IMG/VR virus record: IMGVR_UViG_3300025151_000329
Coordinates: 1-22,733 of that record
From: a virus
Strand: one strand, 5' to 3'
DNA: 22,733 nucleotides
Shown here piece after piece: positions 3,459-17,787 of the stretch. A program made the position numbers and the translations under genes. The notes below the pieces were generated by a model. The model was not told the DNA's origin. It worked only from the letters and a program-made list of their open reading frames with translations, and searched no databases. Position 1 is the first letter of the stretch; the number at the start of each line of letters is the position of its first letter.

Positions 3459-4328
3459 ATGAAAATTACAAATGATTATGGGCTTCCGCAGTCCTTTGTC
3501 AACTTTGCACGGAACGACAAATATTCCAAAGGCAAGGCTGACATATCTGTTACCTCAGTTATTGATAGTCCACGCATACGACTGATGCGTGACCAACATC
3601 GTGATCAGATGACATCTGATGTTAGCGACATGATCTGGCCGCTCTTCGGCACCGCTGTACATCATGTCCTTGAGAGCGCATCATCTGATGATAATATCAC
3701 GATAGAAGAGCGTTTATTTAAAACGGTGAACGACTGGGTTGTTTCCGGTGCGATTGATCATCAAAAAATAGATGGAGATCAAATACACATAAGTGACTAC
3801 AAGGTCACCAGTGTTTGGTCTGTAATTCACGGCAAGATCGAATGGGAATATCAGCTAAACTGTTACGCATATCTTGTCGAACATGCCAAGAAAATGCCGG
3901 TCAAATCGTTACAGGTTGTCGCGATACTTAGAGACTGGAACAGAAGGGAGGCTGGGCGGCGTCCAGACTACCCACAAGCCCCTGTAATGACCATAGACGT
4001 ACCCCTTTGGCCTAAGTCCCAGAGAGACCGGTATATGGGCGACAGAGTGGCCCTGCATCAAGAGGCTCAGATCGCTTTCGACTTAGGCAACGAATTGCCT
4101 GAGTGCAGCGATGAGGACAGATGGAAACGTGGTGAGGCATGGGCTGTAAAAAAGAAAGGAAACAAAAGAGCGCAAAGAGTGTTCGACAACGAAAAATCAG
4201 CGCATGAGTTTATCGGAGATCAAGCTAATTTGGAGATAGAACACCGCGAAGGTGAATATGTCCGATGTAATGGCAACTACTGCGGTGTTGCCACATTTTG
4301 CTCACAATATACAGGAGATCAAAAATGA
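3459..4328 (+). CDS. PD-(D/E)XK exonuclease (Cas4/RecB-like)
   Basis: A 289-residue nuclease. The core is readable: a GTAVHH motif (64-69), then GAID (D100), then SDYKVTS with D113 and K115 as the D-x-K catalytic pair, and a QLNCYAY motif (Q132, Y136) as in RecB-family nucleases. Three cysteines near the C-terminus (C270, C275, C281) resemble the Cas4/AddB iron-sulphur cluster, but no matching N-terminal cysteine is seen, so the cluster is uncertain. It heads the plus operon and shares a 4-bp ATGA overlap with the annealing-protein gene. This is the classic exonuclease-plus-annealase pairing, in which it would resect ends to single strands. Confidence 0.85.
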   Translation: MKITNDYGLPQSFVNFARNDKYSKGKADISVTSVIDSPRIRLMRDQHRDQMTSDVSDMIWPLFGTAVHHVLESASSDDNITIEERLFKTVNDWVVSGAIDHQKIDGDQIHISDYKVTSVWSVIHGKIEWEYQLNCYAYLVEHAKKMPVKSLQVVAILRDWNRREAGRRPDYPQAPVMTIDVPLWPKSQRDRYMGDRVALHQEAQIAFDLGNELPECSDEDRWKRGEAWAVKKKGNKRAQRVFDNEKSAHEFIGDQANLEIEHREGEYVRCNGNYCGVATFCSQYTGDQK

Positions 4329-4987
4329 GCAGTATTTGGGAGACCTTATCAAAGGTCGATGTTTCGGAACACACGGAAAAAAAGAATGGTCTAACCTATC
4401 TGAGTTGGGCATGGGCGTGGGGTAAAGTGAAAGATCACTATCCTAATGCTTCCTTTCACAAACATATGTTTGGGGATATAGAAGGGGAAAAATGCTTGCC
4501 ATACACATGTGATGAACATGGCTTTGCATACGTTATGGTAACCATAAATATAGAAGACCAGCACTTAACTGAGGTTTATCCTGTTCTTGATTACAGGAAC
4601 AAAGCTGTGCAGAACCCAGATAGCTTTCAAGTTAATTCTGCCTTGCAGAGATGTTTAGCTAAATGTTGTGCCATGCACGGACTTGGACACTACATCTATG
4701 CCGGTGAAGATTTGCCTCAAGGCAATGGCGTAGACCATGATGTAAAGGTTACAGTCGAGTCCCACGATGGCAAAGAAAATGTTGTTGAAGGTTTGGACTT
4801 GGTGGCTGAGGTCTTTGAAACATTCATACCAGAATGCACAGATGTAGATACCCTTCGGGGGTTCTGGGGCAAGAACAAAGATGCCTTAGATATACTGAAG
4901 AAGGGTGATGAGAAACTATACCAGAAAGTTCTAGGTAACTTTACTGCGCGTAGTGAAATGCTGAAAAAGAAAGGAGAAGCAGCATGA
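4325..4987 (+). CDS. SAK3/DUF1071-type single-strand annealing protein
   Basis: A 220-residue protein with the DUF1071 (SAK3) signature near the N-terminus: TYLSWAWAWGKVKDHYP at about residues 25-41. The middle contains the AVQNP...NSALQRCLAKC...GLG pattern usual in this family. SAK3 proteins are Rad52-like annealases that pair complementary single strands during phage recombination and replication. The start ATG at 4325 overlaps the exonuclease stop as ATGA and has aggaga at good spacing; an in-frame start at 4298 lacks such a site. The stop overlaps the next gene as ATGA. A copy of the 18-bp palindrome (4925-4942) falls in the 3' part of the gene. Confidence 0.85.
   Translation: MSSIWETLSKVDVSEHTEKKNGLTYLSWAWAWGKVKDHYPNASFHKHMFGDIEGEKCLPYTCDEHGFAYVMVTINIEDQHLTEVYPVLDYRNKAVQNPDSFQVNSALQRCLAKCCAMHGLGHYIYAGEDLPQGNGVDHDVKVTVESHDGKENVVEGLDLVAEVFETFIPECTDVDTLRGFWGKNKDALDILKKGDEKLYQKVLGNFTARSEMLKKKGEAA
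4925..4942. promoter_or_regulatory. 18-bp palindrome, site 3 of 6 (inside annealase gene)
   Basis: AAAGTTCTAGGTAACTTT matches AAAGTTA-N4-TAACTTT at 13 of 14 half-site positions with identical spacing. It lies inside the SAK3-like gene, 43 bp before its end. Confidence 0.5.
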
Positions 4988-5277: not shown

Positions 5278-5539
5278 ACGGATAAGGTCAAAGAAATATC
5301 TACAGTCCTTGCGAGGTAGCCCTTGTTTGGTCTGTGGGTATGACGCAGAGGCGCATCATATTATGTTCGCAGAGCCTAATGCTATGGGACTGAAAGTGGG
5401 AGACAACTGGTGCGTTCCTCTGTGTCACTCATGTCATATGAAACTTCATCATTACGGTGATGAGAGGACTTGGTGGGATCTTAAAGGAATAGATCCTATT
5501 GAGTGGGCTAAATATAATTGGGAGACATTTAATGACTGA
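5258..5539 (+). CDS. HNH-type nuclease, DUF968/Ref-like
   Basis: A 93-residue protein with a zinc-ribbon HNH pattern: C23-x2-C26, H33-H34, then C56-x2-C59-H60-x3-H64, and a WW pair after the core. The order (paired cysteines, AHH, GD-W-VPLC-CH-LH, then G.E..WW) resembles DUF968 proteins and the C-terminal nuclease of phage P1 Ref, a RecA-dependent endonuclease. The start is one of two tandem ATGs (5258 or 5261) overlapping the end of the SSB-like gene by about 20 nt. No Shine-Dalgarno is evident, so it probably depends on translational coupling. Its place suggests a role in processing recombination intermediates. Confidence 0.75.
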   Translation: MMTLRSKRIRSKKYLQSLRGSPCLVCGYDAEAHHIMFAEPNAMGLKVGDNWCVPLCHSCHMKLHHYGDERTWWDLKGIDPIEWAKYNWETFND

Positions 5540-5768
5540 AAAAATTCCACCGGGTTATGAGTATTACCAGACATTCGATGTAAAAGTTCACGTTACCTAT
5601 GAAAAAAACTACAAGATTAGGGCCATGAACGATGACCATGCGTTTGCTCTGGCAAAAGACAGGTTAAAGAAACGCAATAAATCAACAAAAAGAAAAGGCT
5701 TGAGTTTTGTTGACGCTGTTAGCGTGAACACTAAGCGTATTTGTGAGGATGAAAATGGAACAAGTTAG
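5532..5768 (+). CDS. Hypothetical basic protein (78 aa)
   Basis: A 78-residue Lys-rich protein. The start ATG at 5532 overlaps the HNH stop (5537-5539) and has gggaga about 6-9 nt upstream; an earlier in-frame start at 5499 would run 41 nt into the HNH gene without a better site. The N-terminal half predicts strands (YYQTFDVKVHVTYEKNYKIR); the middle is helical and strongly basic (AKDRLKKRNKSTKRK), which could bind nucleic acid. I do not recognise a family. It is transcribed with the recombination genes. Confidence 0.6.
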   Translation: MTEKIPPGYEYYQTFDVKVHVTYEKNYKIRAMNDDHAFALAKDRLKKRNKSTKRKGLSFVDAVSVNTKRICEDENGTS

Positions 5769-6186
5769 AGATGCTGCGGTAAACTTTGAGGCTGTTAAAA
5801 TATCTATGTCGCAAGACAAGAATGGCATCACTCTTCGTTTATCTCTGCATCCAAATGAATGTCCACCTAGCCTACACACAGATTGGGTAGGCTCTCGCTA
5901 TATGGTGGCGATGGTCAAACTTAATGATCAGGATGAGCCAGAGGTATCTGATCAACAAAGAGAGATAAAGACCATGATCGCCAGCGCAGGGATGCTTTGT
6001 AGAAACGATGAGTTCGCAGTGTTTCTTGGCGTGTCTGGTGGAGAGGATGCCGTGGCTGAGGTTCTAAGAGAGAGGCTCGGTATAAAATCTAGAACTGAGT
6101 TTAACAACAATTCAGAAGCTAGAGAAAAATTCAAAGCGTTAATTGAGGAGTATGAACGATGGAAAAAAGCAGGGATGGCAAGGTAG
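5755..6186 (+). CDS. Conserved-looking phage protein of unknown function (143 aa)
   Basis: A 143-residue protein. An N-terminal strand-rich domain contains GITLRLSLHPNECPPSLHTD and WVGSRYMVAMVKLND, which I recall from other marine and alphaproteobacterial phage genomes without a known function. A mid-region SAGMLCRNDEF is followed by a helical C-terminus rich in Arg, Glu and Lys. I chose ATG 5755 for its gagg at 6-nt spacing; it overlaps the previous gene by 14 nt. It precedes and overlaps the HTH gene by 28 nt, so the two may act together, perhaps in regulation or replication. Confidence 0.65.
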   Translation: MEQVRDAAVNFEAVKISMSQDKNGITLRLSLHPNECPPSLHTDWVGSRYMVAMVKLNDQDEPEVSDQQREIKTMIASAGMLCRNDEFAVFLGVSGGEDAVAEVLRERLGIKSRTEFNNNSEAREKFKALIEEYERWKKAGMAR

Positions 6187-6425
6187 GGGCTGAACTGCTG
6201 GATGTAAATGGATTGGCAGCAATGCTATCCATGTCCAGAACGTCTCTATATAAAATCCGAACCACCGATGTGTCTTTTCCAGAGCCAGCTTTTAAGAAGC
6301 CAAGGCGATGGACAAGGACACAGATCATCAACTGGATAGACTACAAATCCAAAGGTGAAGACGATGCTGAACAAGCTGGTAAGGAAGCCTATGGAAATGT
6401 GGAAATGACCACTGATGAAAAATAA
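6159..6425 (+). CDS. AlpA/excisionase-like winged-HTH DNA-binding protein
   Basis: An 88-residue protein with a helix-turn-helix of the AlpA/MerR-like excisionase type at about residues 12-60: LLDVNGLAAMLSMSRTSLYK (helices), then FPEPAFKKPRRWTRTQIINW (wing and last helix). The acidic C-terminal tail is probably disordered. Such proteins act as transcription regulators or DNA-bending factors. The start has ggag at good spacing inside the upstream gene. It is the last gene of the recombination operon and the only clear DNA-binding regulator in the window, so it is the first candidate to bind the 18-bp palindromes, though AlpA-type proteins often bind direct repeats instead. Confidence 0.8.
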   Translation: MEKSRDGKVGAELLDVNGLAAMLSMSRTSLYKIRTTDVSFPEPAFKKPRRWTRTQIINWIDYKSKGEDDAEQAGKEAYGNVEMTTDEK

Positions 6426-6478: not shown

Positions 6479-6513
6479 TGTAATCATTGAAACCGATACG
6501 AAAGGAGGCTGTT

Positions 6514-7275
6514 ATGGCTGTATCGAAAAAGACTAGTGAGACTATGGAAATCCACGCATTAAAGCAGGGACATATTAAGTTGCGTATGATTGGTCAGACA
6601 CCAATGTATTTCAACTCTATGGGTGCTAAGGCATGGCGTGATCTTCTCGTTGGTGGTGGTAAGAAGACCGCCGCTCAGAAAAAAGATATTAAGCACAATC
6701 CAGAAGCTGAGTTTCGTGACAGTGTCTACAAGAAAGATACTGGCAGCACTTATCTTTGCTTTCCTGCTGCTGGCGTTAAGGGTGCTATGGCTACTGCCGC
6801 ACTTGAAACCGGCGGCATTACAAAAACCAGTGTTCAGCGCCTGATCTTTCTTCCCGAAAGTCACATTCAGATCTGGGGCAAGCCCTTCTTGAAGATGGAT
6901 ATTGTTCGCTCTGCTGATATGAACAAGACGCCTGATGTACGCACTCGCGCATATCTTCCTAACTGGTGTGCAGAAGTGGAGATCAAGTATGTCGTTCCAA
7001 CACTGAGCGCACACTCCATTGTTTCTCTTCTGTCTAACGCAGGTGCTATCGTTGGTATCGGCGACTTCCGTCAGGAAAAGGGTCGCGGCTCTTACGGCAC
7101 CTTTGCAGTCGCTGGTGCTGAGGACATGGGAGACCATCAGGAAGCATGGGATCTGATCACTCAGGAAGATCGTGAGGTTCAGAAGCTGTCTATGGAACAG
7201 CCGATCTGTGCAGATGAGCAGACGGCAGAACTCATGGAGTTCTTACAGGAAGAGCGCCTTCGTAGGGCAGCTTAG
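6514..7275 (+). CDS. Phage protein with RAMP/Cas7-like sequence features
   Basis: A 253-residue protein with the best ribosome binding site in the window (aaaggagg, 5 nt before ATG 6514). Features in order: a first strand KLRMIGQTPMYFNSMG (23-37); a FPAAGVKGAMATAA helix start (83-96); VRTRAYLPNWCAEVEI (142-157); and a Gly-rich loop GIGDFRQEKGRGSYGTF (181-197). This order resembles RAMP-fold Cas7/Cas5 proteins, where a P-x-S-x-KGA helix and a late G-x-G-rich loop contact RNA. I recall similar phage proteins labelled hypothetical, so RAMP assignment is inference. No cas gene is nearby. The gene is followed by a palindrome, a hairpin and the pentamer array, and lacks the tight overlaps of the preceding operon. 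A shorter role as an ssDNA-binding or recombination accessory protein is possible. Confidence 0.75.
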   Translation: MAVSKKTSETMEIHALKQGHIKLRMIGQTPMYFNSMGAKAWRDLLVGGGKKTAAQKKDIKHNPEAEFRDSVYKKDTGSTYLCFPAAGVKGAMATAALETGGITKTSVQRLIFLPESHIQIWGKPFLKMDIVRSADMNKTPDVRTRAYLPNWCAEVEIKYVVPTLSAHSIVSLLSNAGAIVGIGDFRQEKGRGSYGTFAVAGAEDMGDHQEAWDLITQEDREVQKLSMEQPICADEQTAELMEFLQEERLRRAA

Positions 7276-7289
7276 TTACCTGTAACTTT
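7272..7289. promoter_or_regulatory. 18-bp palindrome, site 4 of 6
   Basis: TTAGTTACCTGTAACTTT matches the AAAGTTA-N4-TAACTTT consensus at 12 of 14 positions. Its first bases form the TAG stop (7273-7275) of the RAMP-like gene. Its central CCTG is identical to that of site 5. Confidence 0.5.
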
Positions 7290-7296
7290 TAAATTA

Positions 7297-7321
7297 GAGA
7301 GGGGCGATATTCGCCCTTCTC
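7297..7321 (+). terminator. Hairpin after the RAMP-like gene
   Basis: An 11-bp stem (7297-7307 with 7311-7321, one G-U pair) closed by a TAT loop. It follows the palindrome at 7272 by 7 nt. No T tract follows, so termination efficiency is uncertain; it may define an RNA 3' end or allow read-through into the array. Confidence 0.5.
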
Positions 7322-7350
7322 AAGGGTCGCGGTTAAATATGTTTAGGACT

Positions 7351-7910
7351 GGTATGGCGAGGCGGTCTAGGTACGGCCTGTTACGGCTAGGTGGGTTAAG
7401 GCGGTTCAGTTCTGGTTCGGTTAGTTAAGTTTTTGTCTGATTGGGCGTGGTAAGTTTAGGCGGTTCTGGTAGGTCAGGTCTGATAGGTTTAGGCTGGTGG
7501 GTCAGGGCGGTCTCGGTATGGTCAGGGCTGGTAGGGCTAGGCGTCTCTAGGCATGGCGGTTAAGGTATGGCGTGATCCTTTTAGGACTGGCATGGCGGTT
7601 TCGGTATGGCTTGTTGAGTTCCGGTTATGTGCGGCAAGTCTAGACGGTTATGGTGCGTTTCGGTTGGGTCGCGTAAGGTTCGACTGGTTAAGGTCGGGCA
7701 AGGCGGTTTTGGTCGAGTGCGGCGGGGTACGGAAAGGTGTGGCTTGGTGGGTCAGGGCGGTTGAGGCGGGGCATGTTATTGTTCGGTGCGTCAAGGCGAG
7801 TTTAGGTCGGGCGAGGCGTGGCATGGCGGTTGAGTTAAGGCTGGGTGACGTTAGATATGGTGTGGTGGGTTTTGGCGAGGCGAGATGTGATGTGGCATGT
7901 CGGTCTAGGT
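7351..7910 (+). repeat. Degenerate pentamer array (NNKKY, mostly NNGGC/NNGGT)
   Basis: About 560 bp of non-coding sequence with a 5-bp period: two variable bases followed by G/T, G/T, C/T. In 7370-7437 the triplets fall every 5 bp with 13 of 14 units matching. In 7765-7827 all 13 consecutive units match. Elsewhere single-base indels shift the register, but GGC/GGT at 5-bp steps stays dominant. The plus strand is rich in G and T and poor in A, with C mostly at the last unit position. Longer words recur: a 17-bp exact repeat at 7495-7511 and 7745-7761 (250 bp apart), gcatggcggtt at 7551, 7590 and 7821, and tttaggactgg at 7342 and 7580. No ribosome-bound gene fits. This region holds everything seen in the long gap 7276-7973. 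Confidence 0.85.
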
Positions 7911-7973
7911 GAGTAATGTTGGGTCTCGTCACGGATTGGCAAGACAAAAACTTTTGTGTAAAGGGAGATTAAA

Positions 7974-8480
7974 ATGAAGAAATCAGTGCGCTTTTCTAAA
8001 GACACTAAACAGCGGATCATTGATGAGTATCTTGCATCCACTGGATTAAATACGTATCGGGCTGATGAGTTTGTTGATTGGCTCGCTAATCAGCCTGAGC
8101 ATGAAGCCTATGCGGCTTTCTATGGGATGACTGATGAACATGCTGCTCGTCAGTATCGCATCGACATGGCTCGTGATATGGCTAGTGGTCTTCGCATCGT
8201 TGCAAAGACTGAGGTCATTGAAAGCGGTGTCAGCACTATTAAGGTAACTGAATATCCAGCCTACATCTCTCCTGTGAAGGGACGTAAGGATGGTGGTGGC
8301 TATGAGCCTTTTGATCCTAGTGATGAGGAGGCTCAGGCTGAGTTACGCCGTCAGGCTGGTGTTCAGCTTGCCGCGTGGCTCAATCGGTATCGTGGATCTG
8401 CCGAAAATATCGGTCTTGATATGACGCCCATTGAAGATATGGTGCGTGTGCTTCGGGACGAAAAAGAAGAAGCAGCATAA
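7974..8480 (+). CDS. Conserved-looking phage protein downstream of the pentamer array (168 aa)
   Basis: A 168-residue, acidic, largely helical protein. ATG 7974 is preceded by aagggaga at good spacing. The N-terminal half carries a recognisable pattern, IIDEYLASTGLNTY, then FVDWLANQPEHEAY, YGMTDEHAARQYRI and MARDMASGLRI, which I recall from other alphaproteobacterial phage and prophage proteins without assigned function. A Gly-rich linker (about 101-110) separates a C-terminal helical part ending in KEEAA. It is the second protein gene flanking the array and has the same ending as the first: stop codon, AAAGTTA palindrome, GC hairpin. A promoter in front of it is not clear; it may be read through the array from 6450. 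Confidence 0.7.
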   Translation: MKKSVRFSKDTKQRIIDEYLASTGLNTYRADEFVDWLANQPEHEAYAAFYGMTDEHAARQYRIDMARDMASGLRIVAKTEVIESGVSTIKVTEYPAYISPVKGRKDGGGYEPFDPSDEEAQAELRRQAGVQLAAWLNRYRGSAENIGLDMTPIEDMVRVLRDEKEEAA

Positions 8481-8496
8481 AGTTACCTGTAACTTT
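8479..8496. promoter_or_regulatory. 18-bp palindrome, site 5 of 6
   Basis: AAAGTTACCTGTAACTTT has perfect 8-bp arms around a CT centre and overlaps the last two bases of the TAA stop (8478-8480) of the preceding gene. It is a full consensus copy. Confidence 0.6.
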
Positions 8497-8517
8497 AGCC
8501 TCCCCTTTGGGGGGGCT
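8497..8517. terminator. Bidirectional hairpin between convergent transcripts
   Basis: A 9-bp GC-rich stem (8497-8505 with 8509-8517, one G-U pair, TTT loop) directly abuts the palindrome at 8479-8496. It lies between the plus-strand array cassette and the stop (8516-8518) of the minus-strand giant gene, so it probably serves both directions. The T-rich tail is poor on either strand. Confidence 0.6.
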
Positions 8518-11500
8518 ATAAGGTTTTCATAATGATATTGCCTCTAAGAATTAAGGCATCTACTTGCTTGCTCATTCTTTCTATTATTTTACTTTTTTGT
8601 TCTTCTGGTATTCTTGGATTGTCTTTTATTTGAGCCATTCTACGCAGAAGACTGTTGCGTCCGTTATTTATAGACTTGATAACACCAGCTATTTTCAGTT
8701 CATCTTTATACTTTGATCTGGCTCTTTGTATTAGATTTGAGTCGCCTCTTTTTATAGCGTCATTCAAAACTTCTCTAGCTTGAAGAACTCTGTCTCTCTT
8801 ATCTATGAAAGAACCAAGATCCTCTCTTTTGGAAACAGAGTATACAACTTTTCTTCCAAAAGGTATTTGTCTAATCATCTCATCTGAGAAGCCCTCCTCC
8901 ACAGCCTTTGGCAGTGTAGAGAAAGCAAAGTCACCTGATCTCTGGACAAACCTTCCAATGCCACCTGTCAGGTAATCTACCCAGAACTCAATGACATCAG
9001 GGGACACATCAAGAGTTCCCTTCTCTACTGTTGATCCATCTAGGCTGTTAAGCCACTGGGCAATCCACTTCGCTGATGGAGATGTGGTTGACCAGTATAG
9101 TTGACTGTCCGGCGGAGGCGTGGGATCAAATGGAGATGTCTCTTTGTATATTGGCTTGTTAGCAAAGTCTTCGTTCTCATAGAGATCAATTATAGGATCA
9201 ACAACTGTAGGCATTACAAAGTTAATGAAACTCTCTGTGCCACCAAGTGGATTGAGAGTGTCTATCATGGTCATCATTGCAGAATCCGCTGCCTCCGCTG
9301 GAGTGTACCCACCCCTTGCGGCTCTGCTTAAAGATCTGCCTATATTAACAGCCATATTGAGACCATACGGCATCGGTATAACTATGTGAGACCGCTCCGT
9401 AATGCCAAACGGATCTCTGAATACAAGGTTATGTTCCAGAATATAGTCCGGTATTTTATCAGCCATAAGCTGACCGTCCTCATCTTCGTCTGAGGTGAGA
9501 GCAAGAAGCTGATCTTGCAACACACCAGCTACCATGAGACCAACCCATATTTTACGAACCTTCTTAGACCTTGCCGCCGCACTCAACATGGCGAATGAGC
9601 CTTGCAATGATGCGTTGTAGAATAGGTACATGGAGTTCATCAGGGTCTTGTATTCACCACCCTTGGCAAAATCCACCGTGACATTACGAGCGGCAAAAGC
9701 TGCTCTCTGTTCTCCAATCCTTGGAGCCAAAGCCTTAAATGTAGCTACGCGAATAGCGTTCTCAGCGACAGTGTTGTAGTCCTCTAAGAACTTCAACATT
9801 GAGCCAGTCTTCTTGCCAACAAAGCTGTTCTTAACAGCGTTCCACTGACCTCTTGCCCCCTGCTCTGCGATGTCGTCTGTCAGCTTCTTGATGTTAGCGA
9901 TTTGATCACTAAGATCACTGATCTGGTTTGTTGCGTTCTGACCACCGGCCCTCTGAAATCTTCTGAATAGAGCCGCTCCTGTTAGTTCTGACACAGGTAT
10001 GCTCGGATCATCAACGGCGTCTATATCCTCTCTAACGACTTGCCTTACAGACTTAAAGGCATCAATAAAGTTACGTCTAACTTCTGAGACAATACCCTTC
10101 TCTTCATACTGGTTGATATTCACGCCAGCGGTCTGAATATCCCTGAGCATGTTGGTGATGAAGAACTCTGGGTTCAGAGATGTGTTGATGTTGGAAAGAT
10201 ATCTATTGATCTTTCCAAGACCTCTGACTACAGCGTTTGATGTCTGGGCAGACACACCAGCACCACCCTTGAGGGCGTTGGCAAGTCTTTGATCTCTCAC
10301 CCGTATGTAAACGTGCTTTCCATTTTCCTTGACAGCAAAAATGTTTGGATCATTAAGAGCGTTTCTATCTACTATAGTCCTGACGGAACCCTTCACTAAT
10401 CCTCTGGTGAGGGGAACGCTTTCTATCTCCTCTGCAAACTGACTAGTAAGACGCTCATCAGCCCTTAATAGATTAAGGAAAGACAAACCAACTTTATTTC
10501 TCTCAGCCCTAATAACAGCATTTTGATTTTGTAAGAAAGCGGCTGCAAGTATGTTGGTCGCATACTCTTGACGGCCTAAAGCCCGCCTGTCTTCTCTGCC
10601 GCGCACAGAGTATCCTTGAGTGGTTGCAGACCTTGTGTAGGAGGCGTCCTCTGTTGCCTCACCGTCTGCATCAAATATCCCTCTAAGAGGCACATAGTTT
10701 TCATATTGTGGAGGCTGTACAATCTCTCCGCTCTCTAAAACAAGAGGCTCGTTGCTGTTGAAGTCTGGGGTGAGGCCAGATGCAACCCTGATTGCATTTG
10801 TATCATCAATCACCTGACGGACTCTCTGCTGTACGTCAGCTATGATCTGCTTGTTGCCTGACCCAAGCGAGTCAACCCAAGACAGAATGTAGTCTGCCTC
10901 AGCATCTGTCATACCAGATCCATTATTAAGATCGTTGTTGATCGATCTGATATATGCGTTTCTCTCCTTGGCATGAAGCGCATACAGATATGCGTCAACT
11001 ATAGCTAGTCTCTTGCTACCAGTTTCTTTGAATGATTTAGCAGCGTAGTTACCGCCCTCAAAATCACTGTTGAAACCTCTCCCGGTCAGTCTAGAAAACT
11101 CAGCGTCAGAAACTTCTAGATCTTTAACAAGCCTTGCAAGAGGCTCGTACATATCTTTTTGTTTTGAGTTAAGTATGTCGCCTGTCTTGCCGTGGAACAG
11201 TGTTTCTTGAAGATATGTGTCCATGCCATCAGTGATGGTCATGCCCTGCTTCTTCAAATTGTCAATCATCACACCGACAGGCAAGAAGGTATCTTGGAAC
11301 TTGGTGATAAAAGACTGAGATATGTCTCTTGCTTTTTGGTCGCTGACTAAACCCCCTAGCCCAAGAATCTTTGATATCGTGTTATGCGCGGCAGAATATG
11401 AAATGTGATTGTTATTATGATTAACTATGAAGTCTGTGGAGCCAGTGTCCACATTAGCAAAGGATGTTCTTGAGAAAGATCTACTGAGTTTTTTCGCCTT

Positions 11501-14500
11501 TAAATCTGGATAGCTGGTTCTTACTGAGTAAACACCAACAGGATTCCTGAATCCAAACTGAGAAAGAATTTCAGGATCTTGCAATCTTCCATATTGAAGA
11601 GAAAGAACAATTTTTGGAGAACTGTGAGATGGCCGCAACCACTCAAGTCTTAGATCTCTTCTGCCTACTGGTATGAAGGCATCACTAACCGCAGGACCAC
11701 CGCCTCCATCAGGGAACGAAACAACATTGGGGCCGTCTTTATGACCCTGCTTGTGCCAAGCAAACATCAACTGCTGCACAGCAGTCTCTACGTCAGGAAA
11801 CTTTGAGTTTTCTACTATCTCTTTCTCGTGGCCGCGCTCTTGTATGTGATACTTTCCAAATCCAAAAGCCCTTCCAGAAGAGTCCACACCGTGATTTCCT
11901 GCAAAGAAAAGAACAGGAATCATATTATTGTTTTCTTTTATCACGCCAAAAAGAGAATCGTATTTCTCAAATCTAGGAAACCTTTTAGGAGCGTTTATAG
12001 TGGAGAAAGCATTGGACGGAGCAGTAGAAAACTTCCTTGTTGACTTCGGAAGCGTTTCCAACATGTCCATTACAGACTTTAATTCTTGTTCTTGATCTGG
12101 TGTTATCTCACCTAGAGTTGCCTCTTCGTTTTCAAAAAGCTGTATCACCTCTGCGCGGCTAGTATCTAGCTGTCTGTTAATAGAGGAAGGATTTAAAGCA
12201 GCACCGTTCTGAGCATCTACAGCATCATCATAATCTAAAAATACTTCTCCTTCTTGATCGCCATTCTTGTATGTAAACCTCCTCTTAGGGTTGTAGTACA
12301 TAAAGACAACATCAGGCTCACCATTATTGAAATCTGAATATTCTTCTTTATCCCAGCCATCTGGAGCAAACTCATCATTCCATGTTGTGCGGGATCTAAT
12401 GGTGAATCCATTTGCGCTGTATACGCCCGGTAGAAAAGTGTCAAAGGCGTCTAGCTTGTTTCCACCCTCATCAACTGCCAGCCTGATAGCAGGATATGAG
12501 AACCCCCTGTATGCGTCTGGAGTGTTGAATACAGAGACGATGTCAACAAGACCATCTATCTCACCCTCTTTTAGGGCAAAGCCAGCTTTACCATCTCTTG
12601 TGAGGAACAGGCGCATGTCTGCATAACCTGTCTCGTCTGCCGTTGTTTCTACAGGATAAACGTATACAGATGAGCCTATTGGACCTTGAGCTATTCTAGC
12701 TCTGTCAATCGCCTCAGCAAACTGCTGTGCTGACCTCATCGTTTGAGCCAACTCAAATATGGCTGGAGTCTTTACGCCCTGTTCGTTAAATAGTCTTGCG
12801 GCATATGGAGCTATCTTGTACTCAGCAGCTACATCATATTGGCCCACTTCTCGGCTTGATCTCTTCCTACGCCATACTCGTCCATTATCCCCTGCACCAA
12901 TCCTGACGGCGATGGCCGCAGCTTTTGCTGGGCTGACGCTGTACTTGAGGTTAGCGGCGGTATCGTTTTCAGCAGACTCTCTGCTAATTCCTTCATCTTG
13001 TCGTCTGGCACCTGAGTCAGGATAGACTCTGTCTCTGTCTGTTGGGGGAAGTGCTTCTGCGATTTGGTCATCTGTGAATCCCTCTCTTCTTGCATATGCT
13101 ATCGCGCCGTCAACGTAATCGTTATCAGCGCCTGTGCTTTTTGTACCCATAGAGGCTAGTAGCCTCTTCTCATGATACCACATGAGTGCTTGGAAATCGG
13201 CATTGTTGATATCAATGCCAGTCTTCTCTTTCAAAAGTTCCCTAGAACTTTCTGCTGCGTCCCTCATCACCTGACGCTCAGTGCCATTCCTAGGCGTAGC
13301 TTGCTCAAACTTGCCACTCAAATTTTGCGAGTGCGTATCTGCCGCTTGGAATAAAGGAGTTTTTTCTGGCCTTTGATCTGCTTCTGCGGCAGAAAACTTA
13401 TTAAATATTCTTTGGAATTTTTTATTAAGGGCGACAGCGAACTGATCAATATTCTGACCTTCAAGAGAGTCAAGCCCTTCATCTAACATAGTATCTTCTA
13501 CTAAGCGCTGCTCAAACTCTGTGAGATCTCCCTCAACAGCTTCTTGTATTCTTTTTCTGTTTTTATTGTTTGTAGCATCTGTAGGCTCTTTAAATGGTTT
13601 GCCTATGATGCGATTCCACATACGCATCCACCACATATCCATAGTGAGGGCGTCAAACTCACCATTAAGATTCATGTAGAATCCGTTGCCTATTTTTGCA
13701 CCTAAGACATGAGCAACCCTAACCTTTGTATCTTGAAGCTCTCCACTAGGTATCTCTATGCCTAATTCCTGAATTACAGGATCTTTTTTTAACTGTCGTA
13801 CTGTAGTTTCTTGAGTAAGGTACTCCTGTATTTGAACATCAGTCATATTCAAATCGCGCTTTAAGGTATTGTAGAAAGCAAAAGATTTACGCATTGCTTC
13901 CGCGCCTTTGCTTCCATATCCGTCAGCCTTAAAAAGTCCGGTTTCTTTCCAAACTTTGTATTCTTCCATTGCGCTGACAAAATTCTGATTTACAGACAAG
14001 CCATTTGATGTGACGGCCATGGCAAATGTAAATGCAGCCCTAGCATCTGGGTCATTTAGTATCTGTTGGTTGCCGCCCTCAATCTTGCCCATGAACTCAA
14101 ACATGGTTGCGACTTTGTCTTCGTACCAACCGATGGCGTTCTTATCACCGCGCAGGGCGGCCTCTGCCTCTGCCGCCATGATCATAACGATCTTCTTGAA
14201 GTCTTTCGGGTCTAGAGGATCGAGGGTTATATTGCCCTTCTCTTCCTGCAAAATACGCAGTGAAGTTGCCACCCGTGGTGCGACTACCTTGCCCTTTTCA
14301 TTGAACACTCGTGTGTCGATGAACTCATTGTTCTCATCAATTCTGTGAAGGGCAGATGCTTGAGCCAGCTTTTGACTGATGCCTAACTGAGACTTGGCAA
14401 CATTTGCCTTGACCCTTTCAGGCGTTGATCTGAAGGGTTCGATGGTGCTTTTTTGGGTTGAGTACAGGAAATCCTTCTTCGGCGCAAATACAGGGTTCTT

Positions 14501-17500
14501 CGCCAAAACAAGTGGTCCAACCTGTATCACTCTGTCGGCCCCAATCACCGGCTGTGTCGTCATCCTGTCGTAAAAATACGAGTGCCTAAATGGATCAAAT
14601 CCAACTTGCACATAGCTTGGGTCATTCAACGCTCTCTGCGCTTCTACAAATGCTGCGTCAGGCGTTGTTTGTTCTAAGCTACCTGTTATTGTGGCATACG
14701 GACCCTTGGCAGCCCCTGCGGCTATCCTCAGACCTGCCCTCTGTAAGCCCTCTTTCATTAAAAGATCTGCGTTATTAACAATAGCCACGCTCTCGTGGGC
14801 TATGACTTGATTTCTTTTGAAGCCCAAAGGCACGGTTGCGTTTGTCCCATGTATGGTGGGAATCCAAACGCCCTTGTCCCTGTACGCTGGAATATCTAAG
14901 CGCAACTGAACCTCAGTGCCTTCTGGGATAGATGACGACTGATTGAGTTTTTCTAGCTGATTAGTCTGCAACCCATCCCGCATTTCTTCTATTGTTGCCG
15001 GTGCGGGTACGGTCTTGTAGGGCATGATAGGCTTTACATCATTGACCAGCTTGTCATAGGTCTCGTAATCAATTTCGTTATTGACTAGCTTCTTGGCGGC
15101 CTCTGTCATTTCATCGATGCGTTTGGTTACATCTTTGAAAGACTGATTGATGCGCTCTATGTTGCCCCTGTCAGGCTCAATATAGCCAGCCACTATGCCA
15201 GCAGTAGAATACTTTGCGTTGCTCTTTGGTGGCGTGAACTGCCCACGCTTCCTAGCGCCTAACTGCTTTGTCTTGTCTTGTGTCTGTATGTTCTCAAATA
15301 TTGATGCCGCAGAGTCAAAGCCCTCGTCAAAGTGAGCGCCGCCAAGAGCCTTGAAGAACTTTACTATCCTGTCGAGGAGGTTTTTCGGTTTGCCGACTAT
15401 CTTGAGACGACCATCCGCATAGGCGCGGAACATCTCTGCAATCGCCTCTTCTTCCAAAAGAGCCTGCATCTCAGTCTCACTAAGATTTTGATCTTTTGGG
15501 TTCAGTAGTATTGCGCGGTCAAGAAATGTGTATGCTCTTTTCTCACCTTTGCCCTGCTTTATAGCAACATACTTTGTGTTGCTTGCAGCTTTGACTAGAG
15601 TCTTGTATTCGGCATTTGTGAAGAGACCAATATCTTTTATGGCATGTATAATCTCGTGATTGAGAACATTCCTGAGAGATACATACAACTCATCATCTGT
15701 AACAGATGGGTCATATATTGACATGGCAAGAGATATTGATCTCTTACTAGGATCAAAAACACCCTCAACATTTGGATCTTTGAGGCCAGCTTCTCGCTCT
15801 ATGTAATCATCTATCTTGAGTCCAACATCACCCAAGCCAAGACCACGCATATACTTTCTTAGCCTAGCAGCAACCTTCTTGCGCTTCGTCTGATACTCGT
15901 CACGATACCTTGCAGATTCGGCCTGCATTGCGAGCTTGCTCGCTTCTTCAGCCTCCTCACGCTCTGTCTTGGCTACTCTTTCGTCAGCCGCATCTCTTTC
16001 TGCTTTTTCTTTAGCGTTGATGCTTTCCTCAGCCTCTGCAAGAAGCCTCTTAGGCTCTTCAACTGAAGACTCTATACTTTCAATTTCTTGATTTAGATTT
16101 TCTGCTGCAACAGGATTATTTTCTTTAAGAGCTTTGTCTCTAAGTCTTATAGCCTCTTGTTTCGGGGCTTCCAGCTTTGCAATATCTGCTCTTGCTTTAT
16201 CCCTTTGCTCTTTTTCTTTATACAGAGGATCAAGTCTTTTATCTTCAGGAAGAACGTATCTGCCACGTTCCAAATGTTTGACAGAACCCTCAGCCTCTAA
16301 CTCTCTTAGAATTTCATCAACAACTTCTGTTGAATCAGTTTTGATGGCTCTTTTAATTTGACCTTTGTGGACTCTGCCTCTTCTCTGTATTTCTTTTTTA
16401 GCATCATCCTTTTGTTTGACAGAAAATATCGGAGCCGCTGGCTTTGCTGCTATATCTGGCCTTTGTAATCTATCAAACTGATCGGCTATATCTTGACCAA
16501 ATATTTTTGTTATTTCTTCTTTTGTAACATCAGCATCAGGCACGATGCCTGTGCCTTCTCTTGATCTTCTTATTTCAGCAGCAGCATCTGGCTGAAAATC
16601 TTTTAATGGAACAGGAATAAACGGTCTCGTAGCCTGCTTTGCAGCATTTGCTAGACTTAAATTCTTTTGACCATCTGTAAGATTTGTATCAGATATCTCA
16701 GCAACAACTTCTGGCTGCGCTTCTTCTTCTATTGGCTGACGTAGATCAAAGCCAACTTTCCCTGCTCTTATTCTTGCGTCTGCACGACCGCCCTCTTCTA
16801 TGGCGTCTTCTTGTAGCTGTCTTTTTGCCTCTGCCTCTTCTTGCTTTTTAATGTCGCCACCGACAACTCCGACAGCACCTTTAACTGTGCCGCCGACTAA
16901 TCCAGCAGCTACAGCAACCTCTACATATTCATCCAAAGCCTCATCACTGGTTATGCTCTGACCAGCTTGAAGTCTCTCTATAACTTGTTGTCCAACTTCT
17001 GTAGGCACCTCTACTGTAGCACCGGCACCCACACCCTTAACGCCTCGACTGAACAGTCCCCCACCCCTGATCATTTTTGGAGTAAGAAATCTGCCAACTA
17101 TGAATCTGTCAGCTATGAGATCAAGAGATGCTTGCGGTAGAGAAGCAAGCAACGCAACGCGATTATCTACCTCTACAGGTCTGCCAGCATCTACATCTGC
17201 CTGTTTTTGGGCCTCTCTATTGCCACCAAAGAAAAATGGTATGTTGGCGGCAAGACCGCCCACAACAGTACCTACAGCGCCACCAACTAATGTGCCGCCC
17301 GGACCAAGTCCAGTTCCAATAGCTGCCCCCGCCTTACCACCGGCAACGCTGCCTGCTATGGTAGTGGCAAGATTAGGAAGTTGTTCGCCAAGGGTCTCCA
17401 CAAAGAAGTCAAGGCCAGAGCCAATATCCTTTACATCTTCAAGCCTAGTGGCATTTGCACCAGACTCTTGCAGTTCTTGCTTGTTTGTTTCTACGATGTC

Positions 17501-17776
17501 AGAGCCGATGTCCTTGATGGAATCGATGCCTGTTGACTCTCCCACACCCTCAAGTGCAGAGCCGTAAAGCATTTGCACTGTATCTACGCCAGCACCAAGA
17601 GCGCCGAGGAAGCCTCGACTATCTTCTCCACCGCCACCAATAAGGGCTTCGTCAGGATCACCGAGGCCTTGAAGATACTCTCCAATTCTGGCTCTCTCAG
17701 TTTCTGAGATCTCTGCACCCTTTATCTTAAAGGGATAGACCTTGCCGGAGGTGCCTTGAGCATAATATACGCCCAT
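8516..17776 (-). CDS. Giant polyvalent virion/ejection protein (3086 aa) with LPD38-like C-terminus
   Basis: A 3086-residue multidomain protein, last gene of the ejection operon, in the place of T7 gp16. Visible parts: a glycine-zipper hydrophobic stretch (about 135-182) that could insert in membranes; a possible winged helix (458-512); a charged coiled coil (515-640); a zincin-like HEIIH (707-711) with a possible third ligand E781; a block with VQLRLDIPAYRDKGVW (about 955) and VIQVGPLVLAK (about 1080) that recurs in phage polyvalent proteins; a GNAT-like region (1690-1835); a PBECR nuclease-like region with GKYHIQERGHEKE (about 1975); and an LPD38-like region (about 2600-2860) containing KGGEYKTLMNSMYLFYN. 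It is probably injected with the DNA and may carry several enzymes. ATG 17776 was chosen over the TTG at 17779; agggggt lies upstream. Domain names other than LPD38 are tentative. Confidence 0.85.
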   Translation of the reverse strand: MGVYYAQGTSGKVYPFKIKGAEISETERARIGEYLQGLGDPDEALIGGGGEDSRGFLGALGAGVDTVQMLYGSALEGVGESTGIDSIKDIGSDIVETNKQELQESGANATRLEDVKDIGSGLDFFVETLGEQLPNLATTIAGSVAGGKAGAAIGTGLGPGGTLVGGAVGTVVGGLAANIPFFFGGNREAQKQADVDAGRPVEVDNRVALLASLPQASLDLIADRFIVGRFLTPKMIRGGGLFSRGVKGVGAGATVEVPTEVGQQVIERLQAGQSITSDEALDEYVEVAVAAGLVGGTVKGAVGVVGGDIKKQEEAEAKRQLQEDAIEEGGRADARIRAGKVGFDLRQPIEEEAQPEVVAEISDTNLTDGQKNLSLANAAKQATRPFIPVPLKDFQPDAAAEIRRSREGTGIVPDADVTKEEITKIFGQDIADQFDRLQRPDIAAKPAAPIFSVKQKDDAKKEIQRRGRVHKGQIKRAIKTDSTEVVDEILRELEAEGSVKHLERGRYVLPEDKRLDPLYKEKEQRDKARADIAKLEAPKQEAIRLRDKALKENNPVAAENLNQEIESIESSVEEPKRLLAEAEESINAKEKAERDAADERVAKTEREEAEEASKLAMQAESARYRDEYQTKRKKVAARLRKYMRGLGLGDVGLKIDDYIEREAGLKDPNVEGVFDPSKRSISLAMSIYDPSVTDDELYVSLRNVLNHEIIHAIKDIGLFTNAEYKTLVKAASNTKYVAIKQGKGEKRAYTFLDRAILLNPKDQNLSETEMQALLEEEAIAEMFRAYADGRLKIVGKPKNLLDRIVKFFKALGGAHFDEGFDSAASIFENIQTQDKTKQLGARKRGQFTPPKSNAKYSTAGIVAGYIEPDRGNIERINQSFKDVTKRIDEMTEAAKKLVNNEIDYETYDKLVNDVKPIMPYKTVPAPATIEEMRDGLQTNQLEKLNQSSSIPEGTEVQLRLDIPAYRDKGVWIPTIHGTNATVPLGFKRNQVIAHESVAIVNNADLLMKEGLQRAGLRIAAGAAKGPYATITGSLEQTTPDAAFVEAQRALNDPSYVQVGFDPFRHSYFYDRMTTQPVIGADRVIQVGPLVLAKNPVFAPKKDFLYSTQKSTIEPFRSTPERVKANVAKSQLGISQKLAQASALHRIDENNEFIDTRVFNEKGKVVAPRVATSLRILQEEKGNITLDPLDPKDFKKIVMIMAAEAEAALRGDKNAIGWYEDKVATMFEFMGKIEGGNQQILNDPDARAAFTFAMAVTSNGLSVNQNFVSAMEEYKVWKETGLFKADGYGSKGAEAMRKSFAFYNTLKRDLNMTDVQIQEYLTQETTVRQLKKDPVIQELGIEIPSGELQDTKVRVAHVLGAKIGNGFYMNLNGEFDALTMDMWWMRMWNRIIGKPFKEPTDATNNKNRKRIQEAVEGDLTEFEQRLVEDTMLDEGLDSLEGQNIDQFAVALNKKFQRIFNKFSAAEADQRPEKTPLFQAADTHSQNLSGKFEQATPRNGTERQVMRDAAESSRELLKEKTGIDINNADFQALMWYHEKRLLASMGTKSTGADNDYVDGAIAYARREGFTDDQIAEALPPTDRDRVYPDSGARRQDEGISRESAENDTAANLKYSVSPAKAAAIAVRIGAGDNGRVWRRKRSSREVGQYDVAAEYKIAPYAARLFNEQGVKTPAIFELAQTMRSAQQFAEAIDRARIAQGPIGSSVYVYPVETTADETGYADMRLFLTRDGKAGFALKEGEIDGLVDIVSVFNTPDAYRGFSYPAIRLAVDEGGNKLDAFDTFLPGVYSANGFTIRSRTTWNDEFAPDGWDKEEYSDFNNGEPDVVFMYYNPKRRFTYKNGDQEGEVFLDYDDAVDAQNGAALNPSSINRQLDTSRAEVIQLFENEEATLGEITPDQEQELKSVMDMLETLPKSTRKFSTAPSNAFSTINAPKRFPRFEKYDSLFGVIKENNNMIPVLFFAGNHGVDSSGRAFGFGKYHIQERGHEKEIVENSKFPDVETAVQQLMFAWHKQGHKDGPNVVSFPDGGGGPAVSDAFIPVGRRDLRLEWLRPSHSSPKIVLSLQYGRLQDPEILSQFGFRNPVGVYSVRTSYPDLKAKKLSRSFSRTSFANVDTGSTDFIVNHNNNHISYSAAHNTISKILGLGGLVSDQKARDISQSFITKFQDTFLPVGVMIDNLKKQGMTITDGMDTYLQETLFHGKTGDILNSKQKDMYEPLARLVKDLEVSDAEFSRLTGRGFNSDFEGGNYAAKSFKETGSKRLAIVDAYLYALHAKERNAYIRSINNDLNNGSGMTDAEADYILSWVDSLGSGNKQIIADVQQRVRQVIDDTNAIRVASGLTPDFNSNEPLVLESGEIVQPPQYENYVPLRGIFDADGEATEDASYTRSATTQGYSVRGREDRRALGRQEYATNILAAAFLQNQNAVIRAERNKVGLSFLNLLRADERLTSQFAEEIESVPLTRGLVKGSVRTIVDRNALNDPNIFAVKENGKHVYIRVRDQRLANALKGGAGVSAQTSNAVVRGLGKINRYLSNINTSLNPEFFITNMLRDIQTAGVNINQYEEKGIVSEVRRNFIDAFKSVRQVVREDIDAVDDPSIPVSELTGAALFRRFQRAGGQNATNQISDLSDQIANIKKLTDDIAEQGARGQWNAVKNSFVGKKTGSMLKFLEDYNTVAENAIRVATFKALAPRIGEQRAAFAARNVTVDFAKGGEYKTLMNSMYLFYNASLQGSFAMLSAAARSKKVRKIWVGLMVAGVLQDQLLALTSDEDEDGQLMADKIPDYILEHNLVFRDPFGITERSHIVIPMPYGLNMAVNIGRSLSRAARGGYTPAEAADSAMMTMIDTLNPLGGTESFINFVMPTVVDPIIDLYENEDFANKPIYKETSPFDPTPPPDSQLYWSTTSPSAKWIAQWLNSLDGSTVEKGTLDVSPDVIEFWVDYLTGGIGRFVQRSGDFAFSTLPKAVEEGFSDEMIRQIPFGRKVVYSVSKREDLGSFIDKRDRVLQAREVLNDAIKRGDSNLIQRARSKYKDELKIAGVIKSINNGRNSLLRRMAQIKDNPRIPEEQKSKIIERMSKQVDALILRGNIIMKTL
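10067..10084. promoter_or_regulatory. 18-bp palindrome, site 6 of 6 (inside giant gene)
   Basis: AAAGTTACGTCTAACTTC matches AAAGTTA-N4-TAACTTT at 13 of 14 positions with the same spacing. It lies within the coding sequence of the giant protein. I find no further copies between here and the right edge. Confidence 0.4.
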
Positions 17777-17787
17777 CAATTAACCCC

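Follow-up and report, generated by a model that had tools for sequence, protein, structure and literature searches.

A G(G/T)Y-NN repeat array beside a RAMP-family gene in an uncultivated phage, very probably a VIPR guide array

Described VIPR systems and the genes of the locus

The closest described systems are named Viral Interference Programmable Repeat (VIPR) and are known from one 2026 preprint (PMC13142463); a literature search for VIPR beyond this preprint found no other paper mentioning it. According to the main text of the preprint, VIPR systems consist of small phage-borne RAMP proteins and guide RNAs of GGY/NN repeats (YNNGG, 9-16 per guide), the guides recognise double-stranded DNA as dinucleotides separated by one skipped base, and double-stranded DNA binding and repression from either strand were shown for the system of Escherichia phage SUSP1. 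Seven VIPR types are distinguished there, and the system described here may be one of them.

In the window (the whole stretch of DNA analysed, 22,733 nucleotides, positions 1 to 22,733 of the IMG/VR record IMGVR_UViG_3300025151_000329), a vipr gene of the RAMP family is followed by a long G(G/T)Y-NN array and then by a possible accessory gene. With one base skipped per dinucleotide, several guides of the array spell conserved codons of other phages' genes. The array at 7326-7947 almost certainly holds the guide RNAs of a VIPR system. By the features tested, the window system is VIPR, but not of the SUSP1 type.

The vipr gene is located at 6514-7275 (+) and encodes 253 aa from the ATG at 6514 (262 aa from the TTG at 6487, the start used in the ORF list). 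Its product is a RAMP protein with a C-terminal G-loop (..GAIVGIGDFRQEKGRGSYGTF..) and an extra C-terminal helical extension. The structure was modelled using AlphaFold2 (pLDDT 88.6), and the model was searched against the PDB using Foldseek, where 50 of the 50 matches listed were CRISPR effector structures, mostly Csm3/Cas7 complexes, with E-values from 1.7e-6. The model and these matches give the window protein the small RAMP fold expected of a Vipr (RRM core and G-loop), and the GxG-rich loop is conserved. Kinship to a demonstrated Vipr (SUSP1, PDB 36pp) was found by profiles, with E=2e-27 for the family profile and E=8.6e-5 for the profile of the window's own clade; the reverse search recovered the SUSP1 vipr gene (E=8e-39), which has GGYNN tracts beside it. 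Comparison of the single window sequence with SUSP1 Vipr gave barely a match (E=0.13).

As described in the main text of PMC13142463, the type II VIPR of SUSP1 and of a Pseudomonas fulva prophage has in common with the window system a phage-borne RAMP protein with a G-loop, an adjacent GGY/NN repeat RNA, the 1-nt skip at codon wobble positions, and targets that are genes of other phages. The layout differs in that SUSP1 has separate vrRNAs of ~100 nt, each with a tail, whereas the window has a continuous array of ~11 guides with the 1-nt spacer GGC-G-GTY; the invariant structured 3' tail carried by each type II vrRNA was not found in the window, where only the 1-nt spacers are present. The triplet is relaxed to G(G/T)Y compared to GGY in SUSP1, the window Vipr is about 50 aa longer than that of SUSP1, and the accessory gene is of a different family, with no homologue among the SUSP1 proteins. 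The SUSP1 guides are directed at satellites or lysogeny regulators, whereas those of the window match catalytic-motif codons and a tRNA gene, an aim of which the main text of the preprint makes no mention. The staggered-array VIPR types (PMC13142463, fig. S18), which have overlapping vrRNAs, may have the layout of the window, a likeness that follows their mention in the main text.

With Class 1 CRISPR-Cas, the system shares the RAMP backbone fold (Csm3/Cas7), a guide RNA, and a multi-guide array, but its code is non-contiguous. CRISPR-Cas identity was rejected, as the array parse found no CRISPR repeats in the array region, and no cas family was found in the window proteins scanned using Pfam and PADLOC, with no cas1 or cas2 recognised. 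The exonuclease at 3459-4328 had one PHROG match described as CRISPR/Cas system associated.

The candidate vap (accessory) gene at 7974-8480 (+) encodes a helical protein of 168 aa with one long beta-hairpin, for which no fold match was found in PDB or BFVD. Of the 95 loci at which homologues were found, 27 belong to the 120 array-pattern matches listed. The palindrome AGTTACCTGTAACTT is present at 7273-7288 and 8482-8497, directly after the stop codons of vipr and the candidate vap, and is a putative operator or small terminator common to both genes. An 11-bp hairpin (GAGAGGGGCGA-TAT-TCGCCCTTCTC) at 7297-7321 (+) separates the vipr stop codon from the array, and relatives have hairpins of different sequence in the same place (GGGGCGG..CCGCCCC in locus L003 and GGGGCAG..CTGCCCC in locus L012); judged from its letters, the hairpin may be a terminator or the end of the precursor RNA. 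A promoter/terminator consensus scan near the array found nothing above shuffles. A PD-(D/E)XK exonuclease and a Sak single-strand annealing protein are encoded shortly before the VIPR genes, at 3459-4987 (+), and this recombination pair might drive the guide shuffling seen between relatives. The 3087-aa protein encoded at 8516-17779 (-) matches phrog_14770, phrog_616, and phrog_6958, which are PHROGs of very large proteins, either unknown or from virions. Its neighbours are a DNA ejection protein and a protein with a transglycosylase domain, and it is probably a giant internal virion protein.

Rhythm, segments, and relatives of the array

The array was delimited by Viterbi parsing of an HMM, which gave 127 units of G(G/T)Y + NN at 7326-7947, with 113 steps of 5 nt and 13 steps of 4 nt. 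The first-pass annotation had described a long array with a 5-bp rhythm at 7351-7910; the array is real and slightly longer, and the 127 units agree with its statement that spacing and base class are kept and not the individual units. It had also named two stretches in exact register, of which 7370-7437 is so overall, with one break at the 4-nt unit at 7400-7403, and 7765-7827 is so up to 7824 but not beyond. Autocorrelation and Fourier analyses versus dinucleotide shuffles were carried out as it had proposed. The GG dinucleotide (7341-7935) recurred at lags 5, 10, 15, 19-20, 24-25, and 29, and the counts at lags 5, 10, and 15 (36-37, z 4.5 to 4.9) were above all 2000 shuffles (maximum 34, at lag 10). 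The chain score for G[GT][CT] every 5 nt was 54 versus ≤7 in 1000 dinucleotide shuffles, in agreement with a rhythm far beyond chance. The plain Fourier signal at period 5 was weak, at 1.42 compared to 0.72 on average in shuffles, as the phase is moved by a 4-nt unit once in every 7-14 units.

The 4-nt units, mostly GGCG followed by GTY, are not noise; they split the array into an opening segment and ~11 guide segments of 7-14 units each, parted by the one-base spacer GGC-G-GTY. Across related loci, the commonest spacing of the GGCG-GTY pair is 9-13 units. The segments are non-coding YNNGG (GGY/NN) tandem repeats next to vipr, with the triplet relaxed to G(G/T)Y, position 2 of the triplet being T in 34%. 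Two ORFs are listed inside the array, at 7553-7912 (+) and 7648-7947 (-), and look spurious, the period being 5 and not 3. The earlier call of a non-coding array was right. The predicted RNA folding of the array was about that of its shuffles (z=-1.2). No match was found in an Rfam search of the array or in an ordinary nucleotide search of the array region versus annotated phages. The minus strand is C-rich and was considered for Rho utilisation, a reading set aside in favour of the guide reading.

All segments are on the + strand and are given here with their NN letters. The leader segment (7326-7364; GC TA AT TA CT AT GA) is similar in 11 distinct module variants. The HMM parse then gave guide 1 (7365-7403; TA AC CT AC TA GG AA + GGCG), guide 2 (7404-7462; CA CT TC TA AA TT CT TG GT AA TA + GGCG), and guide 3 (7463-7509), which is irregular with two extra 4-nt units. 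Guide 4 (7510-7558; TC AT CA CT AG TA GT TA AT) is followed by guide 5 (7559-7597; AA AT GT CC TA CT AT + GGCG; HMM parse), guide 6 (7598-7646; TC AT TT GA CC TA GC AA TA), guide 7 (7647-7705; AT GC TC TG CG AA TC TG AA CG AA), guide 8 (7706-7759; TT CG GC GG AC AA GT TT GG AG), guide 9 (7760-7828; GA GG AT AT TC GC AA GA TA CG GA GT AT), guide 10 (7829-7902), and guide 11 (7903-7947; HMM parse), which is the degenerate end of the array.

Related phages were compared and phage genomes searched for similar tracts, both of which had been suggested in the first-pass annotation. For the relatives, 80 IMG/VR loci were fetched with the 262-aa ORF upstream of the array, and an array of the same type was found in the same place in most of the relatives' loci among those listed. 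Among the loci of the closest Vipr relatives, the window included, the intergenic array was present in 80 of 81. The first-pass annotation was right in proposing selection on the array. In the reverse direction, the DNA pattern (GGYNN)7GGY alone was searched in IMG/VR viral contigs and found at ≥120 loci; GGCNN-like tracts, which the first-pass annotation had mentioned, do exist in other phages. A Vipr-family protein, i.e., one of the family of the upstream protein, was encoded in 87 of the 120 matches listed. These 87 loci and the arrays in the relatives indicate that array and protein belong together. Homologous guides in divergent relatives keep the NN letters while the triplets vary in the examples compared, which matches the prediction for information-bearing NN.

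Named genomes with clade members were mostly alphaproteobacterial (for example Pararhodobacter, Methylobacterium, Microvirga, and Bradyrhizobium). The cultured Gordonia phages UmaThurman (locus L358, gene 39, with integrase and repressor genes near) and Ecliptus (locus L359, gene 19) encode homologues of the window Vipr, annotated as hypothetical proteins. Very long arrays were seen in L150 (-) at 1092-2432 (268 units) and L056 (+) at 5328-6398 (218 units), in strand coordinates, with ~20 guides each.

Decoded targets of the guides

Six guides (starting at 7510, 7598, 7647, 7706, 7760, and 7829) were decoded into gapped patterns using the published 1-nt skip and searched in IMG/VR viral contigs. 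The six were not a random draw, the first ones having been picked as common to relatives and with protein-like decoded letters, and the whole-collection scans were made at skip 1 only; the argument is one of coherence, with many matches in one motif and one codon phase. For guide 7, 49 of 49 matches were in the tyrosine recombinase motif (F/L)HD(L/F)RHEAI(S/T)R, as FHDLRHEAI or a one-residue variant, antisense and with the skip base at the wobble position. Twelve sites matched all 22/22 guide bases, both of the two target proteins checked in Pfam were Phage_integrase, and the integrase guide shows, in NN column 10, the variants CG=R, GT=T, and TG=H, which correspond to residues present there in natural integrases. 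The 8-NN core of guide 9 matched the phage portal motif G(L/A)ISANEYR(D/E) in 14 of 19 cases, in sense orientation and wobble phase, with a best whole-guide match of 23/26 bases. Eight of nine exact matches of guide 6 were the YFAYGSNM motif of AIG2-like gamma-glutamylcyclotransferase (GGCT). Guide 4 had 37 exact IMG/VR matches, about 33 of them with tRNA-like sequence (5' end of a tRNA-Arg gene); ARAGORN, run on 19 loci, placed 14 at the 5' end of a called tRNA-Arg (13 TCT and 1 GCG). Guide 8 was weaker, with two of six matches in the QueC motif PNTFVPARN, antisense and in wobble phase. The core of guide 10 gave 15 matches in mixed genes and phases with no coherent target, which is the picture of chance and serves as an internal negative.

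With the 1-nt skip, four guides therefore point to a single motif each, the three protein targets among them in codon phase, a fifth does so weakly, and one is incoherent. The two bases called variable in the first-pass annotation hold information on the target when read by the published 1-nt-skip code. Of the five target families, four (integrase, GGCT, QueC, and tRNA-Arg) were matched on the strand complementary to the transcript. All five, including portal, were found on viral contigs, as expected of mobile-element targets, and the target phages presumably compete with the guide-bearing phages; clade phages were also present in only 4 of 44 integrase-target samples. The integrase and portal guides had no match within 3 mismatches in 10 near-relative records (which may be partial), as expected for non-self targets. 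Searches of Rhodobacteraceae and other genomes with the tRNA and integrase guides were negative. The tRNA guide had no match in 12 host-type genomes, and for the integrase pattern 199 genomes from the family that includes Pararhodobacter marinus gave no exact match at any of skips 0, 1, and 2, so that this search does not discriminate between skips. A bulk skip test on the collected loci using ~1000 guides of relatives gave 12 words at skip 1 versus 4-6, from too little DNA and with low-complexity matches, and the slight excess was absent on repeat after excluding the scanned families.

Alternative readings and significance

The first-pass annotation had offered periodic protein contacts, a periodic RNA, or avoidance of secondary structure as reasons for the array, and the periodic RNA is the part that is supported. 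Helically phased protein-binding sites on DNA (an origin, partition, or packaging site) would account for a strict period near half a helical turn in an intergenic position; however, such phasing is lost at the 4-nt units, which come every 7-14 units, the NN letters decode to conserved gene motifs, and the adjoining gene encodes a CRISPR-effector RAMP fold, so that this reading, already disfavoured by the decoded targets, is scarcely credible. A sponge or decoy RNA that binds a G/U-specific protein, or a spacer that avoids structure, in either case acting without guide function, is very improbable. The RNA is indeed G/U-rich and repetitive, and TRAP-type binding arrays are an analogue for such a sponge, but homologous modules, in the examples compared, keep NN and vary the G(G/T)Y triplets, the opposite of what a sponge would do; the Rfam search speaks against both sponge and spacer, and folding like that of shuffles speaks against structure avoidance. 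Guides acting on RNA (antisense to mRNA or tRNA) and not on DNA are a more serious alternative, though an unlikely one. The complementary strand of four of the five target families and the presence of RNA-targeting Csm3 complexes among the closest folds are in its favour, but 14/14 portal matches are in sense orientation, so that this guide could not pair with portal mRNA, and PMC13142463 reports for SUSP1 that double-stranded DNA is bound and that repression works from either strand.

Under the VIPR reading, and by analogy with the main text of PMC13142463, the array would be transcribed into vrRNAs, Vipr subunits would line up along each vrRNA and grip the G(G/T)Y triplets, the exposed NN pairs would bind double-stranded target DNA, and the complex, once bound, would keep the target gene of competing phages or prophages from being transcribed. 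With the wobble base skipped, one guide would match a catalytic motif in most of its synonymous codings and could therefore reach a whole gene family. On balance, the system is probably a tail-less VIPR variant with a continuous one-base-spacer array, whose guides read codons of catalytic or structural motifs and hit whole phage gene families (integrase, portal, QueC, and GGCT) and a tRNA gene, not one rival strain. The kind of system is known already; what seems to be added to VIPR is the arrangement of the guides and their direction at codons of catalytic motifs.

The locus supports the VIPR code independently, by sequence, in a further branch of the family, here in uncultivated phages with relatives located in alphaproteobacterial genomes, and supplies decoded natural targets for this code. 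A likely reading is now available for GGY/NN tracts in unannotated gaps of phage genomes. For a guide that reads codon positions 1 and 2 of a catalytic motif, wobble changes give no escape and protein changes hardly any, and the system could therefore restrain many temperate rivals at once.
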